Below, piece by piece: positions 8,097 to 40,955 of a DNA stretch of 42,396 nt; position 1 is the stretch's first letter; each line of letters starts with the position of its first letter. The notes beneath the pieces are model-generated. The model was not told the origin of the DNA. It did no database searches and saw only the letters and a program-made list of their open reading frames with translations. Both the position numbers and the translations under genes were made by a program. Location of the stretch: IMG/VR virus record IMGVR_UViG_3300035199_000242, positions 1 to 42,396 of that record; one strand, given 5' to 3'. This stretch comes from a virus.

Positions 8097-8828
8097 GTGA
8101 ATGAGTTGGCACTATTTGCAGGAGCAGGAGGTGGACTCCTCGGAAGTTTGTTGCACGGGTGGCGAACCGTTGCCGCTGTTGAGATCGAAGATTACCCACG
8201 CAGAGTTCTATTGCAACGGCAGGCTGACGGAATCCTACCTAGATTCCCTATCTGGGACGACGTTTGCACCTTCGACGGTAACCCCTGGCGAGGAAAGGTC
8301 GATGTCGTCAGCGGAGGGTTCCCATGCACAGACATTAGCCCAGCACGTTCAAACAATAATGTCTCTGGACGCTTGGACGGACTGGACGGACGTTCTAGTG
8401 GACTTTGGCGAGAGAATCGCCGCATTATCGGAGAGGTTCGGCCTACGTTTACGTGGACCGAAAACGTACCTCTCTTACGCACTCGCGGACTTGTCACCAT
8501 CCTCCAGGATCTTGGACTGTTGGGGTATAATGCGCGATGGGGAGTGCTTGAATCTCGCTGGTTCGGCGCAGATCACACCAGAGCGCGCATGTTTATTGCC
8601 GGAACCCTTGCAGACTCCGACACGACACAACTCAAAAGAGGTAGCGTGTCCTGGCGAATACAGAAGGCATACCCCGACATTGGCGGCACAAGTTGGCGGG
8701 AAGATCAACCCGTGCTGGAACGAACAGCGTATGGGGTGGCCCATCAAATGGACCGACTTGCGGCCATTGGCAATGGTCAAGACCCGCGAGTCTGTGCGCT
8801 CGCATGGGATATGCTCCGACACCCGTAA
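8097..8828 (+). CDS. DNA cytosine-C5 methyltransferase 1
   Basis: This 243-aa protein begins with motif I (LALFAGAGGG) only four residues from the start, has the catalytic loop GGFPCTDIS with nucleophile C77, a motif VI-like TWTENV, a motif VIII-like RARMFIAG, and motif X (RLAAIGNGQDP) near the end. It would methylate C5 of cytosine using S-adenosylmethionine, presumably to protect phage DNA from host restriction. It starts at GTG. The product MNELALFAGAGGG matches the usual N-terminus of these small phage enzymes. AGGGA (8091-8095) lies too close to this GTG and is better placed for the ATG at 8101 in the +1 frame. The whole gene is overlapped by that second long ORF. Confidence 0.88.
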   Translation: MNELALFAGAGGGLLGSLLHGWRTVAAVEIEDYPRRVLLQRQADGILPRFPIWDDVCTFDGNPWRGKVDVVSGGFPCTDISPARSNNNVSGRLDGLDGRSSGLWRENRRIIGEVRPTFTWTENVPLLRTRGLVTILQDLGLLGYNARWGVLESRWFGADHTRARMFIAGTLADSDTTQLKRGSVSWRIQKAYPDIGGTSWREDQPVLERTAYGVAHQMDRLAAIGNGQDPRVCALAWDMLRHP

Positions 8829-8886
8829 AACAACCACAAGTAACCCGCAAGAAAATGCCCGAAACAAAGGAGACGACAATGGTTGA
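8101..8886 (+). CDS. Overprinted +1-frame ORF on methyltransferase 1
   Basis: A 261-codon ORF in the +1 frame covers nearly the whole methyltransferase gene and runs 58 nt past its stop, into the next gene. Its ATG at 8101 has AGGGA 5 nt upstream. An internal ATG at 8302 has AGGAAAGG just upstream. Notable segments are ESYLDSLSGTTF, SAEGSHAQTLAQ, CWGIMRDGECL, LLPEPLQTPT and NPCWNEQRMGWPIKWTDLRPL. These resemble segments I recall from proteins annotated beside phage Dcm genes (SHART, WGMMRDGE, LPTPT, LMGWPxGWTDL). Function is unknown. Part of the similarity could be a by-product of the conserved methyltransferase frame. Confidence 0.5.
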   Translation: MSWHYLQEQEVDSSEVCCTGGEPLPLLRSKITHAEFYCNGRLTESYLDSLSGTTFAPSTVTPGEERSMSSAEGSHAQTLAQHVQTIMSLDAWTDWTDVLVDFGERIAALSERFGLRLRGPKTYLSYALADLSPSSRILDCWGIMRDGECLNLAGSAQITPERACLLPEPLQTPTRHNSKEVACPGEYRRHTPTLAAQVGGKINPCWNEQRMGWPIKWTDLRPLAMVKTRESVRSHGICSDTRKTTTSNPQENARNKGDDNG

Positions 8887-36105: not shown

Positions 36106-38007
36106 TTATGTCAGGGACACAGATTCGGGATCGACAGAAAGGTCGTCCATTATGCCGATGCCTGCTGCCTGTGCCTCTGGGGTTTCCTCGGTTGAGGGAG
36201 TATCGTTTCCTGCTTTTTCCTGCAAATCAAGTTCGCGGCGTTTCGTGGTCATCCGGTCCAGCTTCATCAGGGTGTTCTGGGCGAGATGTCGTGCGGCGAA
36301 TGAATACTGCCCACAGTCGAAGTCGTCCTGCGGTCGGCGCACGACCTCCCAGTACAACTCGGTCTTGCCGTATTTGTCTGGTTTCGTTTCCTTGAGCACC
36401 TCGCCAGTCATCTGCTTCATAAACTCACTGTCGATCCCCTTGTGAAAGAATATCCCTACCTCGCCGCTTGAGTTGATCGCAGAACTGAGTTGGTCCTTAA
36501 AAAAGTGCGGGTGGATATGGAAGAGGGTCAGTGAACGCTTCCCGCCGAATAGTTTCCCGTTCGGAAAACTCTCGATGCGAGACGGAGCGACGGGTTTCGT
36601 CTGCCGTGTCTTACTGCCCTTCTCACCCTTGATCGGCATGATGTATGGATGCCTGAGAGCGTACTCGTATGCCTTCATCGTGTCATATCCAGTGTCAAGC
36701 AGCACTTTCGTCACGAACAGTTCGCGACCAGCGTCGTCGATGTAGCTTCGCTGCATAAGTTGCTCGTCGATGTCGTCTATCACCGCGAGGTATCCGTTGT
36801 CGATAAGGTAGTGCGCCCGAAGCGTCAATGCGTAGACGTGGAAGACCAGATGCGACTGCTGTATATCTGTTGTGCCCAACAATACGCAGTCGTCGGAAGT
36901 AGGCACAACCCCCTGCGCGTAGACGTGCTTGGTCTGTCTGTCCCTGATCGCTGCGAGCGAGATCTCTTTCTTCGGTGGTTCTCGCCACCAGTCCCCGCAA
37001 GTCGAGTTGACAAAGTTTTGAAGTCGGGACGGATCGTCCTTCGACTGCAAGAAGTTCTGCACGACCTGTGCGATCGTCACCCACTTGGCATACCATGACG
37101 GCAGCTTGAAGGTCGCGTGTTTCGGGTCTATTGTCTTTGCCTCGGCAACCCACTTGCCGTCGTCAACCATTCTTTCCTTGTCGTCGTCGTTGAGTTTCTT
37201 GTTGCACGACGGGCACTCGATAAAGGCATCGCGAGCGATCTCATCGACCCGCTTGCTCTTGACTTTGGTGTTGAACTTGAAGTCACGCTTGAAGTCGATC
37301 ACAAACGGTTTGCCGCAGCGAGCACACGGCACATTGTACTGGCGACGGTCCCCTTCGAGGTAACTCTGCGAGATATGCCCGTGCTCCGCAACAGGGGTGG
37401 AGGTTTCGAGCACCTTCATAAAGTCCTCGAACGTCTTCGCTCGCTCCAGTGCCAACCAGACGGCACCCGCTTCATCCTTCACGTTGACAGGATACTTTTC
37501 GGTCTCATCCAGAAGTAGATAGCGCGATGCTCGCGACGCAAGGTTTGCTGGAGAGTTCGCACCGATCCAGTTGACCGCACAACGGCGCAGGATGTACTCG
37601 CTTTTCTTGAAGTCGTCGGGGTCGGTTGTCAACTGCGCTGCCACGTTCGGCGAGTCCTCGATAAGCGGCATCATGTTCTGTTGACTTTTTGAGCGTGCTA
37701 TGTCGGCATTCGGCATGACGATCAGGACTGGATCAGGATCTTGGGATATGCAATAGCACACCCAGCAGTACCCAAGCAGGGTCAGACCAAGCTGGGCACC
37801 CTTGACGACTGTCACCCGTGTGAGTGACGGGTCTTCCAGGGCATCGAAGATGCCGCGTGCGTAAGGCACCATGTCGGTGCGGTAGTAACCGTATGATCCC
37901 CGTGCCACGGGTTGCCGCAGGGAGAGCACGATGTTCTGCTCAACCCACTCCCATAGGGGCAATCTCGGCGGCTGGATGTACGGGGTCTCTATGTTGATGC
38001 TGATCAT
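36106..38007 (-). CDS. Terminase large subunit (GpA family)
   Basis: This 633-aa protein follows the GpA pattern: an N-terminal WVEQNIVLSLRQPVARGSYGYYRTDMVPYARGIFDAL segment, the ATP-binding VTVVKGAQLGLTLLGY (Walker A variant), IVMPNADIARSKSQQNMMPLIEDS, a Walker B-like RYLLLDETEKYP, a zinc pair region (PCARCGKPF, then ECPSCNKKLNDDD), and the nuclease half including LLGTTDIQQSHLVFHVYAL (D-type metal site) and KVLLDTGYDTMKAYEYAL. It cuts and pumps DNA into heads. GpA-type enzymes belong to lambda-like cos packaging systems, so a cos site would be expected near the TerS end. I could not identify one. Confidence 0.92.
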   Translation of the reverse strand: MISINIETPYIQPPRLPLWEWVEQNIVLSLRQPVARGSYGYYRTDMVPYARGIFDALEDPSLTRVTVVKGAQLGLTLLGYCWVCYCISQDPDPVLIVMPNADIARSKSQQNMMPLIEDSPNVAAQLTTDPDDFKKSEYILRRCAVNWIGANSPANLASRASRYLLLDETEKYPVNVKDEAGAVWLALERAKTFEDFMKVLETSTPVAEHGHISQSYLEGDRRQYNVPCARCGKPFVIDFKRDFKFNTKVKSKRVDEIARDAFIECPSCNKKLNDDDKERMVDDGKWVAEAKTIDPKHATFKLPSWYAKWVTIAQVVQNFLQSKDDPSRLQNFVNSTCGDWWREPPKKEISLAAIRDRQTKHVYAQGVVPTSDDCVLLGTTDIQQSHLVFHVYALTLRAHYLIDNGYLAVIDDIDEQLMQRSYIDDAGRELFVTKVLLDTGYDTMKAYEYALRHPYIMPIKGEKGSKTRQTKPVAPSRIESFPNGKLFGGKRSLTLFHIHPHFFKDQLSSAINSSGEVGIFFHKGIDSEFMKQMTGEVLKETKPDKYGKTELYWEVVRRPQDDFDCGQYSFAARHLAQNTLMKLDRMTTKRRELDLQEKAGNDTPSTEETPEAQAAGIGIMDDLSVDPESVSLT

Positions 38008-38014
38008 TGTGTTC

Positions 38015-38689
38015 TCACCCTGCCTCCTTCAGTGTCCGCAATGCGCCGACAATGTGTCGCAGCACCCTGTCAACCTCGATGTCGATGACCTTGACGCATT
38101 CTGCTTTGGATCGCTTCGATGCCACGGCAGGCCCAAGTCGCTTTGCAAAAGATCGGAGTTCCCCCTCAACGGCACCGTGGGCAAGCATGTAGATCCGTTC
38201 AGCCTCCTTGAGGGAAACGACCTCGCCACGCTGCTTTTCGATGAGCGCAGAGTCTTTCTCGACTCGGCGCAGGGTGTCCATTGCCTTCTCCCACGTCCTG
38301 TACATTGATGCGGCACGGGCATCATCCTGCTGGTTGACTGCCTTGACCCATTCGTTGTGGACGAACCTTTCTGCCGTGCGACACCTTTCGAGTGCCATAG
38401 ACCAAGTGTGGGGCGACTCGGTTGGTTTCGTGGGAACGGGATCAGATTTTTCCTCACTCTCCTTCTTGCTTCCAATATGGGCAAGTTTTGCAGAATCCGC
38501 TCGGACGTTCTCGGCGTACCACTTCCGCACCGCATCGAGATCAAACAGGTTCTTGTGGTGCCCCGCGTGCGGTTTTCGCGCCGCGACAGGCAGTCCCCTC
38601 TTGATATGTCGCGATAGGGTGCTTTTTGTCTTAATCCCAAGAGCGTCGAGGACGGCCCTAGAATCGACGAGGTCTTCTTTGTTTTCCAT
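38015..38689 (-). CDS. Terminase small subunit (Nu1-like)
   Basis: This 224-aa protein begins with a helix-turn-helix (EDLVDSRAVLDALGIKTKSTLSRHIKRGLPVAARKPHAGHHKNLFDLDAVRKWY), the MerR/Nu1-type DNA-binding domain that recognises packaging sites. A helical oligomerisation region follows (WSMALERCRTAERFVHNEWVKAVNQ, LIEKQRGEVVSLKEAERIYMLAHGAVEGELRSF). It lies 7 nt upstream of the large subunit, its usual partner. An out-of-frame ORF on the same strand (38029-38706) is rejected. Confidence 0.82.
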   Translation of the reverse strand: MENKEDLVDSRAVLDALGIKTKSTLSRHIKRGLPVAARKPHAGHHKNLFDLDAVRKWYAENVRADSAKLAHIGSKKESEEKSDPVPTKPTESPHTWSMALERCRTAERFVHNEWVKAVNQQDDARAASMYRTWEKAMDTLRRVEKDSALIEKQRGEVVSLKEAERIYMLAHGAVEGELRSFAKRLGPAVASKRSKAECVKVIDIEVDRVLRHIVGALRTLKEAG

Positions 38690-38724: not shown

Positions 38725-39834
38725 TTATTCATGGTCTAGCCTTGCGCCTTCTGCTGCTTCGATGAACGCTTTCGCGACTTGCGGGACGATTGCATTGCCC
38801 GCTCCCCGCAGCAGGCCCACTCGTCCGGGTATCCCATCAGCCAAAGGGAAAAGCGCGGGTTCAACTTCCAGCCTGCCATGTCTGTCGTCTTGCCGTGCCT
38901 CGGTGTCGCCCAGCCCGCCGTATGCGTCTGCTGCGCTTGATCCGCGAGGTTCATGGCATAGTCTTCCCCTGACTTCCGCAAGACCCTCCCCGCTGGCGTC
39001 AGGTTGCCGCTCCCCAAGTTGTCCGGCATTACTACGCGAGGAGTCGCCCACCCAGCGGGCAGGCACTCGCCTTGCTTTCCCGTCTCGGCAGGGCCACCAG
39101 ACTGTGCGGGTCCAGTCAACAGATAGTTCTCTGCTATGCGGTCTAGAGTGTCGTTCCGCTCTCTCCCGTTGTCTGGCCTGATCGTTGCGTCCTTTGGTGC
39201 GCCTTTGTGATCCCGACTTGTCGCCGTGGGCCATCCCGCCAGAAGCGCAGCCCCGCCCGGAGTCAGCCCGTGTGTCTTCCCCTCGCTCGGCGCCACTCGG
39301 CCCTGCCGATACGAGTGATCGTTCCGTGGACTCGGCCACCCACCAGAGCCTCTGCCGGATGTGGGGCGCCCCGAAGCCCGCAGCGCACATATCTGCAACC
39401 CCGCAAACATATCCCATTGCCTCCAAATCAGCGTGTACTCCGGCGACCCATTCACGTCCGTCGCGGCTTGCAACCTGTTCGCCAAAGACGCTTGGAGGTC
39501 TACGCTGGGCGATAAGCCACCGAAAAGCGGGCCAGCAATGTCTCTCGTCAGTAATCCCTCCACCCTTTCCGGCAACAGAAAATGGCTGACATGGACAAGA
39601 GCCTGTCCAGGCTGGTCGGTCGTCGGGCCAATTAGCCATCCGCAATGCGAGAGGCCATCCGCCAATGCCTGCGAAAAAGTGACATTGCGTAAATCCGTCG
39701 AGGTCGGCTGGGGCGATGTCTCGGATGTCCCGCTCATCGACTACCCCGTCCGCTATCAATCCGTCCGCTATCAATTCCCGTAACCATTGCGCTGCTCCCT
39801 TGTCGTGTTCGTTGTAGAATGCGCCGCCGCTCAT
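38725..39834 (-). CDS. DNA cytosine-C5 methyltransferase 2
   Basis: This 369-aa enzyme has a ~50-residue N-terminal extension (YNEHDKGAAQWLRELIADGLIADGVVDERDI), then motif I FAGIGGW (54-60), the catalytic loop GSCPCQPFS with C82, FGEQV (119-121, the phage variant of ENV), IRQRLWWVA (motif VIII), and motif IX-X near the end (GLLRGAGNAIVPQVAKAF). It is a different subtype from methyltransferase 1. The target recognition region between VIII and IX is Arg/Ser/Gly-rich. It starts after AAGGCGAGGC. It is overlapped along most of its length by a +1-frame ORF. The neighbouring ParB-like and PD-(D/E)XK-like genes suggest a DNA-modification module. Confidence 0.87.
   Translation of the reverse strand: MSGGAFYNEHDKGAAQWLRELIADGLIADGVVDERDIRDIAPADLDGFTQCHFFAGIGGWPLALRMANWPDDRPAWTGSCPCQPFSVAGKGGGITDERHCWPAFRWLIAQRRPPSVFGEQVASRDGREWVAGVHADLEAMGYVCGVADMCAAGFGAPHIRQRLWWVAESTERSLVSAGPSGAERGEDTRADSGRGCASGGMAHGDKSGSQRRTKGRNDQARQRERAERHSRPHSRELSVDWTRTVWWPCRDGKARRVPARWVGDSSRSNAGQLGERQPDASGEGLAEVRGRLCHEPRGSSAADAYGGLGDTEARQDDRHGRLEVEPALFPLADGIPGRVGLLRGAGNAIVPQVAKAFIEAAEGARLDHE
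38736..39737 (-). CDS. Overprinted +1-frame ORF on methyltransferase 2
   Basis: A 333-codon ORF begins 97 nt inside the methyltransferase gene in the +1 frame and ends 11 nt before its stop. Segments include LPERVEGLLTRDIAGPLFGGLS, LQASLANRLQAATDVNGSPEYTLIWRQWDMF, the repeated GWPTATSRDHKG/AGWATPR motifs, and NPRFSLWLMGYPDEW near the end. I recall closely similar phage proteins (GSPEYxLxWKxWDM, GWPTPxxxD, LNPxFxxWLMGYPxEW) annotated next to this type of Dcm. The end motif matches that of the overprinted ORF on methyltransferase 1 (NP...MGWPxxW). Initiation signals are weak. Function is unknown. Confidence 0.55.
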   Translation of the reverse strand: MSGTSETSPQPTSTDLRNVTFSQALADGLSHCGWLIGPTTDQPGQALVHVSHFLLPERVEGLLTRDIAGPLFGGLSPSVDLQASLANRLQAATDVNGSPEYTLIWRQWDMFAGLQICALRASGRPTSGRGSGGWPSPRNDHSYRQGRVAPSEGKTHGLTPGGAALLAGWPTATSRDHKGAPKDATIRPDNGRERNDTLDRIAENYLLTGPAQSGGPAETGKQGECLPAGWATPRVVMPDNLGSGNLTPAGRVLRKSGEDYAMNLADQAQQTHTAGWATPRHGKTTDMAGWKLNPRFSLWLMGYPDEWACCGERAMQSSRKSRKRSSKQQKAQG

Positions 39835-39867: not shown

Positions 39868-40470
39868 TCACAGCAACAGTCTTAACGTATCAATCGCGAG
39901 GTCGCACTCGATCTTTGTCCCAGACGCGCCAAATATCTTCTTCAACTCGTTCATCTGCTCGTCGGTTCGGCACAGGATGCGAAACGCCCTTACATCGGGT
40001 TCCTCGTCCTCTGGGTCTGGTGGTGGTGGTGGAGAGGTGCTCGCCATGAGAGCATGGAGGGTTTCGGTATCGAATCCCGTAAGCTGGAGATCGACCGCGC
40101 CCGTGTCCACCAACTCGATCATATCCTTTGCCAGGGTCAGGTCCAGTGATGACAATTCTGCTATCTGGTTGTCGGCGAGAACATCGGCAAACTCTAGTTC
40201 GTCGCTGGCGTAATCTTGCCTATCGACTGGAACCTCGCTCCACTTCATGTGCTTCGCCGCGAGAAGACGACCGTGTCCCTTTGTCATCAATCCGCTTCGA
40301 GTGGACACCACAATCGGCATTCGCCATCCCGTGACGCTAATGATCTTCGCGAGCAACTCGATCTGATCCTGCGGGTGCATATTCGGGTTGTTCGGTCGCG
40401 GCTTGAGCGAGTTTGTCTGGACGATCTCGTCGTGCGCGCAGTGGACATCTATGCCGTCTTTGGTGGTCAT
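39868..40470 (-). CDS. ParB-like nuclease-domain protein (200 aa)
   Basis: From the ATG at 40470 (overlapping the previous stop as ATGA) this 200-aa protein shows the ParB/Srx-type core: LKPRPNNPNMHPQDQIELLAKIISVTGWRMPIVVS, TKGHGRLLAAKHMKWSEVPVDRQD, and ADNQIAELSSLDLTLAKDMI. GHGRLLAA is the GxxR motif variant. A Pro-rich linker (SPPPPPDPEDEEPDV) and a C-terminal alpha-beta region (AFRILCRTDEQMNELKKIFG) follow. In phages such proteins commonly accompany DNA methyltransferases, as here. An upstream alternative start at 40554 would overlap the neighbour by 88 nt and is not favoured. Confidence 0.78.
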   Translation of the reverse strand: MTTKDGIDVHCAHDEIVQTNSLKPRPNNPNMHPQDQIELLAKIISVTGWRMPIVVSTRSGLMTKGHGRLLAAKHMKWSEVPVDRQDYASDELEFADVLADNQIAELSSLDLTLAKDMIELVDTGAVDLQLTGFDTETLHALMASTSPPPPPDPEDEEPDVRAFRILCRTDEQMNELKKIFGASGTKIECDLAIDTLRLLL

Positions 40471-40955
40471 GCTACGCGCCTGTGCTCCGCTATTTCCATC
40501 GGGCAGTCGCGCAGCATCCACTCGCGGTAGGTCGCTCGGTCCAACCGATACCACCCTCCCCCGCTCGTAGCGTTGTAGATCCAGAACCTGTTGCCGATAC
40601 TAACGTCCATTGCGGCGAGTTGATTTGTCGGTGGACCTCCTTCCAACTCGAACACCACGATCCACAACGGGACTTCGAGTGCCCCCGCTACGTAGTGCAG
40701 GTGCTGTCCCTGCGGAGAGTCTACGTTGTATCGGGCGACGACCTTTGGCAGGTATGCCTGTGGGCAAATCACAGTGTGGTCGGGTCGGGTCAGTTCCATC
40801 ACGGCAATAGGGTACATCTTCCTCGTCGTGTGATCGCGTCGCCACTCGATGTGATCAACGTCGAAGCAGTACGCGCTGCCACCGAATGTCCATCTCCACA
40901 TTCGGTATATGAGTGCCCTGTCCTCCGTGTCTTCTCTGTTATGAACCTTTGCCAT
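40467..40955 (-). CDS. Putative PD-(D/E)XK-like protein (162 aa)
   Basis: A 162-aa protein with AYCFDVDHIEWRRDHTTRKMYPIAVMELTRPD, where D (in DVDHIEWR) and E (VMELT) are spaced as in small PD-(D/E)XK nucleases, although the usual lysine after E is replaced (ELT). Later strands (LWIVVFEL, RFWIYNATSGGGWYRLD) complete an alpha-beta fold. It is coupled to the ParB-like gene by an ATGA overlap. It may bind or cut DNA as part of the methyltransferase/ParB module. Catalysis is uncertain. Confidence 0.5.
   Translation of the reverse strand: MAKVHNREDTEDRALIYRMWRWTFGGSAYCFDVDHIEWRRDHTTRKMYPIAVMELTRPDHTVICPQAYLPKVVARYNVDSPQGQHLHYVAGALEVPLWIVVFELEGGPPTNQLAAMDVSIGNRFWIYNATSGGGWYRLDRATYREWMLRDCPMEIAEHRRVA

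Follow-up and report, generated by a model that had tools for sequence, protein, structure and literature searches.

In the virus record IMGVR_UViG_3300035199_000242, analysed here over its whole length of 42,396 bases (the window), a gene for a C5-cytosine methyltransferase on the minus strand (MT2; 38725–39834, 369 amino acids) contains in its +1 frame an ATG-initiated open reading frame (ORF) of 333 codons (38736–39737). Very probably the product of this locus is a C5-cytosine methyltransferase of two subunits like M.EcoHK31I, with a catalytic subunit, alpha, and a nested subunit, beta. Since the +1 ORF most likely encodes the DNA-recognition half that is missing from the main frame, one stretch of DNA would code for both halves of the enzyme. 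Frame 0 would supply alpha, with the catalytic large domain and motifs I–VIII and X, while the nested ORF, initiated independently at its own ATG, would supply beta, with a region of PTP repeats in the target-recognition position and with motif IX. The two chains would assemble as a heterodimer into one active enzyme that methylates the phage DNA, probably as a protection against host restriction.

An earlier note on this DNA, made from the sequence alone, had proposed that a gene is hidden inside the methyltransferase gene, and gave for the 333-codon ORF the coordinates of the main-frame gene. The ORF is real, and the synonymous shuffles, the frame constraint and the co-occurrence described below show it to be selected and tied to the methyltransferase. 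The main-frame product, alpha-2, has motifs I, IV (PCQ), VI, VIII and X together with the catalytic large-domain fold, as expected of a C5-cytosine DNA methyltransferase, but it departs from the canonical single-chain enzyme in that an IX-like block is located only in the +1 frame and residues 173–346 are disordered. Its match to PF00145 (5e-11) covers only profile positions 66–165 of 324, i.e., it ends at motif VIII; the match to phrog_363 (1.7e-70) extends over nearly the whole length. The predicted product of the +1 ORF, beta-2, matches PHROG 1008 (labelled 'DNA methyltransferase') with E = 3.2e-17 over residues 50–310 and contains the repeats GWPSP (residues 133–137), GWPTA (168), GWATP (229) and GWATP (275). 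Along the DNA, motifs I–VIII in frame 0 are followed by the PTP repeats and motif IX in frame +1 and then by motif X in frame 0 (Table 1), so that the order is the canonical one (I–VIII, recognition region, IX, X), and only its central part is taken from the other frame. The 'accessory protein' of the earlier note is therefore not what the +1 ORF appears to encode, as the motif IX and the PTP-repeat region that it carries belong to the methyltransferase itself and have no counterpart in the main frame.

Table 1. Positions of the two nested methyltransferase loci and their motifs in the window.
Feature	Position	Strand	Support
Alpha-2, catalytic subunit frame (motifs I, IV, VI, VIII, X; no motif IX)	38725..39834	-	PF00145, phrog_363, structure model, Foldseek
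Beta-2, nested +1-frame ORF, 333 aa (PTP-repeat region, putative motif IX)	38736..39737	-	phrog_1008, shuffle, constraint beyond alpha
Motif IV (catalytic Cys), alpha-2 frame, SCPCQPFS	39577..39600	-	
Ordered beta-2 hairpin GSPEYTLIWRQWDMFAGLQICALRAS, over the alpha stretch just before motif VIII	39372..39449	-	pLDDT about 62–82
Motif VIII, alpha-2 frame, APHIRQRLW	39343..39369	-	
Four W-P/A-T-P repeats, beta-2 frame, between VIII and IX (position of target recognition)	38898..39341	-	constraint on the +1 frame; alpha frame close to its null
Putative motif IX, beta-2 frame, KLNPRFSLWLMGYPDEW (beta-2 residues 291–307)	38817..38867	-	+1 identity; hhalign register (weak by itself)
Motif X, alpha-2 frame, GAGNAIVPQ	38779..38805	-	conserved in alpha alignment
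Alpha-1, catalytic frame of the second C5 methyltransferase	8097..8828	+	phrog_363 (1.1e-44); PF00145 (positions 5–168 only)
Beta-1, nested +1-frame ORF, 261 aa, ATG 4 nt after alpha-1 start	8101..8886	+	shuffle; homologues in 13 phage records
Putative motif IX, beta-1 frame, KINPCWNEQRMGWPIKWTDL	8701..8760	+	
Motif X, alpha-1 frame, GNGQDPRV	8769..8792	+	

Long unused ORFs are common in the window, which has a G+C content of 56%, and a spurious +1 frame could be kept open by this composition and by conservation of the methyltransferase frame. When the main-frame protein was held fixed and its synonymous codons were shuffled (20,000 shuffles per gene), the +1 frame of MT2 was open over at least 334 codons in only 2 of the 20,000 shuffles (p = 1e-4, for the MT2 gene alone). 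At the second methyltransferase gene of the window (MT1, at 8.1 kb) at least 242 open codons were reached in 42 of 20,000, and none of the remaining frames of the two genes was unusual. For the MT2 group, 82 non-redundant main-frame genes were shuffled 200 times with alpha fixed; they had 313 stops in the +1 frame against 567 expected (55%; the lowest shuffle gave 533), whereas stops in the third frame were not depleted. Column identity in the +1 frame of these genes was 0.344 against a null of 0.223, with 0.78 against 0.27 over the motif IX block (alpha codons 325–336) and 0.50 against 0.20–0.25 over the beta-2 hairpin just upstream of motif VIII. Identity in the third frame is raised as well, from shared nucleotides, which speaks for a spurious ORF.

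Conversely, when the +1 protein was held fixed (120 non-redundant genes), the main frame contained 10 stops against 980 expected and was strongly constrained over motifs I–VIII and X, while over most of the stretch between VIII and X it was near its null (e.g., 0.09 vs 0.08). Therefore, according to the reciprocal tests, the main frame between VIII and X is kept open with little sequence constraint where the +1 frame is constrained; in two places, a short main-frame stretch just before motif X and the +1 hairpin that precedes motif VIII, both frames are constrained, and the hairpin is the core where the coding is genuinely double. The MT1 group behaved in the same way in both tests. The z-scores overstate significance, because the shuffles treat the sequences as independent, and it is safer to rely on how the frames contrast. 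Furthermore, in four loci (L051, L123, L134 and L217) the main frame has an in-frame stop while the +1 ORF is intact. Each frame is constrained where the other is free, and the +1 ORF is a real gene under selection, in line with the strong selection signature in the codon-level analysis that the earlier note had suggested as a check; that the ORF is kept open only by composition and by the overlapping frame is thus hardly credible.

The most conserved block of beta, KLNPRFSLWLMGYPDEW, has the form and position of motif IX of C5-methyltransferases; in Escherichia coli Dcm, taken as a yardstick, RRLTPRECARLMGFEAPG precedes motif X and is motif IX. Un-nested relatives connect this block to the canonical enzymes. 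Gp50 of Propionibacterium phage B22 is one ORF to which PF00145 aligns through profile position 321, and in it RLSARFVEWMMGLPDGWV is followed by GNGVVPQ in the same frame. Gp54 of Mycobacterium phage Babsiella is also one ORF, with phrog_363 matched at residues 1–219 and phrog_1008 at residues 426–614, and on these matches appears to be a fusion of the alpha and beta families. Staggered two-ORF versions are found in LHTSCC (gp81/gp80), Smooch (gp7/gp6) and HumptyDumpty (gp80/gp81), where the second ORF contains the PTP repeats, the NP..MG block and motif X. Beta is homologous to the C-terminal half of the single-ORF actinophage methyltransferases. The B22 gene (L260) additionally carries an intein-like insert (Pfam matches to Hint and LAGLIDADG) at the PC of motif IV. 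The Babsiella gene (L259, 863–1171) encloses an annotated gp55, 'DNA methylase domain protein', near the linker between motif VIII and the PTP repeats, which may be an out-of-frame element like the one in ShiLan discussed below.

The structure prediction for alpha-2 mirrors this division. The AlphaFold model is confident at residues 1–172 and 351–368, comprising motifs I–VIII and the helix of motif X, while the intervening residues 173–346, with a predicted local distance difference test score (pLDDT) below 50, coincide with the stretch where the +1 frame encodes the PTP repeats and motif IX. With Foldseek, the model matches the large domain of M.HaeIII (1dct_A, E = 8e-8) and of M.HhaI.

The same arrangement could be read differently if ribosomes moved from frame 0 to frame +1 past motif VIII, in which case beta would not be started separately and a single-chain fused methyltransferase would result. 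This would be in keeping with the canonical motif order along the DNA and with the actinophage relatives being single ORFs, but the shifted product would be without motif X, which in the nested type is back in frame 0, and constraint on the +1 frame is seen well before motif VIII is reached, which fits an independent start. In the MT1 group, the beta ATG lies exactly 4 nt after the alpha start in 111 of 176 loci. In the MT2 group, AGGA, GGAG or GAGG is present at Shine-Dalgarno (SD) distance from 44% (159/358) of the N-terminal +1 ATGs compared to 11% (176/1608) of the internal ones, a fourfold higher frequency. Due to this start-site spacing and SD enrichment, and to the loss of motif X that frameshifting would entail, independent initiation of beta is favoured, and a frameshift is improbable.

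A number of points nevertheless weigh against the two-subunit enzyme proposed here. In the window, the start of beta-2 is preceded by GGGG only and not by a typical SD sequence. Direct comparison of both beta families with the canonical C5 profile by hhalign gives the exact register of motif IX, but it is not significant (P about 0.3–0.4), and because of this the motif IX argument rests on the single-ORF intermediates. The model of beta-2 is of low confidence (pLDDT 57.6) and has no fold match in the PDB, with order only in the helix-hairpin (residues 77–123) and around motif IX (294–314); such a poor model would be expected if beta folds only with its partner, which is not proof. Beta sequence profiles likewise had no match in the PDB, and a comparison of the beta fold with viral models gave only four matches at E ≤ 0.001, all to phage proteins, among them a Xanthomonas FoX4 protein and an Edwardsiella eiDWF methyltransferase. 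Finally, the predicted recognition domain of M.EcoHK31I has been placed in the large subunit and not in the small one (PMC3404938).

Beyond the window, the two frames occur together throughout the loci retrieved, which are best-scoring matches with some contigs common to several sets and hence neither random nor fully independent. Among 160 viral loci from beta-seeded searches, 8 annotated phage loci and the 2 window loci, a methyltransferase gene holds the ORF in its +1 frame in 170 of 170. The placement is the same in 80 loci from bacterial genomes, and all 160 viral loci from an alpha-seeded search have a +1 partner, while no such partner accompanies the canonical full-length C5 methyltransferases of bacterial genomes. 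The nested arrangement is very widespread and mostly unannotated. With regard to homologues outside a methyltransferase overlap, which the earlier note had suggested looking for, the outcome is twofold: they exist as the C-terminal half of the single-ORF actinophage enzymes and as the second gene of the staggered mycobacteriophage pairs, but no standalone beta away from a methyltransferase was found in the 170 beta-seeded, 80 bacterial-genome and 160 alpha-seeded loci. In three loci (L055, L056 and L137) the beta ORFs, of 479, 471 and 551 codons, run far beyond the ends of the alpha genes and might be fusions or just longer open frames.

These data also bear on the idea that beta is an unrelated accessory protein, such as a regulator, an anti-restriction protein or a homing endonuclease, overprinted on the methyltransferase. 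Beta has no family match in Pfam (up to E = 1), NCBIfam or PADLOC, and its relatives have none in Pfam up to E = 10; moreover, none of the alpha loci retrieved lacks it, which would not be expected of a mobile insert, and the homology to single-ORF methyltransferases together with motif IX points to a part of the enzyme itself. We consider an unrelated overprinted protein unlikely. A homing element of the HNH type known from ShiLan, a homing endonuclease or a known defence protein as the identity of beta was rejected for want of a family match.

Both window methyltransferases match phrog_363 and fall into the same clade of a tree built on motifs I–VIII. In this tree, a 100/100 branch separates both window genes and the other nested, staggered and single-ORF actinophage types from the canonical enzymes; several deep forks are open, and the order of split and fused forms is left unsettled by it. 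An independent origin of the two window loci is disfavoured by the same branch, and they appear to share one ancestral arrangement through common descent, contrary to the recurrent partnership of 'two unrelated loci' suggested earlier. Common descent would also account for the motif common to both. The repeats described in the earlier note are indeed present in the 333-codon ORF, and the NP/MG motif in both ORFs, but the spacing is NP-x6 and not NP-x4-6; the shared pattern is NP-x6-MG-[WY]-P-x2-W, with only these two occurrences in the six frames of the window. Alpha-1 seems more diverged than its relatives, with SNNNVSGRLDG in place of the usual AGKGAGI...G stretch past motif IV, GNGQDP instead of GNGQVP in motif X and a long branch in the tree, and the motif IX of beta-1 reads NEQRMGWPIKW where VEWLMGWPIGW is usual. 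Alpha-1 may be decaying or specialised.

With slightly better than even confidence, we extend this reading to a large clade of C5 methyltransferases from phages of Proteobacteria, Bacillota, Bacteroidota and others, which would consist of two mutually nested genes for the catalytic and the recognition half. The long frame-0 stretch between VIII and X would then be no more than a linker that is read through passively, opposite to the common view in which the large subunit holds the recognition domain, and the actinophage enzymes would be un-nested or re-fused forms. If this holds, specificity could change via +1 codons with little effect on catalysis. In most cases the annotation of such genes gives only one 'DNA methyltransferase'; should beta be needed, alpha cloned by itself would be inactive, and recognition sites would be predicted from the wrong frame. 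The locus offers a clean natural case of overlapping frames dividing one enzyme, with a measurable constraint map, and the origin of the nested genes by split, extension or re-fusion is testable across living variants.

As to the surroundings, MT2 lies on the minus strand directly upstream of an ORF (38015–38689) that was taken, by eye only, for a putative small subunit of the terminase; beyond it, a TerL-like ORF (36106–38007) has a best phage match of 32% identity. Just upstream of MT2, the minus-strand ORF 39868–40554 resembles, by eye only, a protein with a ParB-like N-terminal domain (KPRPNNPNMHPQDQIELLAKII...). Megablast of window positions 1–24000 against phage records returned no match.

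Several annotated phage loci come close to the window locus. K1ind2 ('Mte8-like' ORF28), Paenibacillus phage Shelly ('g55 internal gene') and Xanthomonas phage PhiXhv-5 have the same nested layout with both ORFs annotated, yet their records state neither a function nor a subunit relation. PHROG 363 and PHROG 1008 ('DNA methyltransferase') correspond to the alpha and beta families, their labels being silent on 1008 as the nested partner of 363. In ShiLan, an out-of-frame HNH ORF lies inside a phage methylase gene (PMC11855218), which resembles the present layout; unlike beta, however, it is a mobile insertion and not a domain of the enzyme. A literature search found no paper on a nested phage methyltransferase family, and while there are known examples of such two-part enzymes, the breadth of the family and its division of labour seem undescribed in the literature searched.

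The two-polypeptide C5 methyltransferases that have been described are M.EcoHK31I and M.AquI, and both natural and artificial enzymes of this type are active (PMC3404938). M.AquI (CYCGRG) is split between motifs VIII and IX, with IX and X on the small polypeptide (PMC3404938), and it resembles the LHTSCC gp81/gp80 split; the window locus differs from it in that alpha keeps motif X and the whole of beta is nested. In M.EcoHK31I (YGGCCR), the large subunit contains motifs I–VIII and X and only motif IX is on the small polypeptide (PMC3404938). This is the nearest match by motif distribution and layout: alpha-2 likewise has I–VIII and X, and motif IX, an assignment supported by the single-ORF bridge, is on the second ORF. 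Lee and colleagues reportedly found in 1995 that the small polypeptide is encoded inside the large gene in an alternative frame, a layout that defines the type and that the window locus has. Compared with the small polypeptide of M.EcoHK31I, which has 176 amino acids, the betas of the window are longer (333 and 261 amino acids) and contain a recognition-like region of PTP repeats, and the pair is phage-borne, with no restriction enzyme seen adjoining it.
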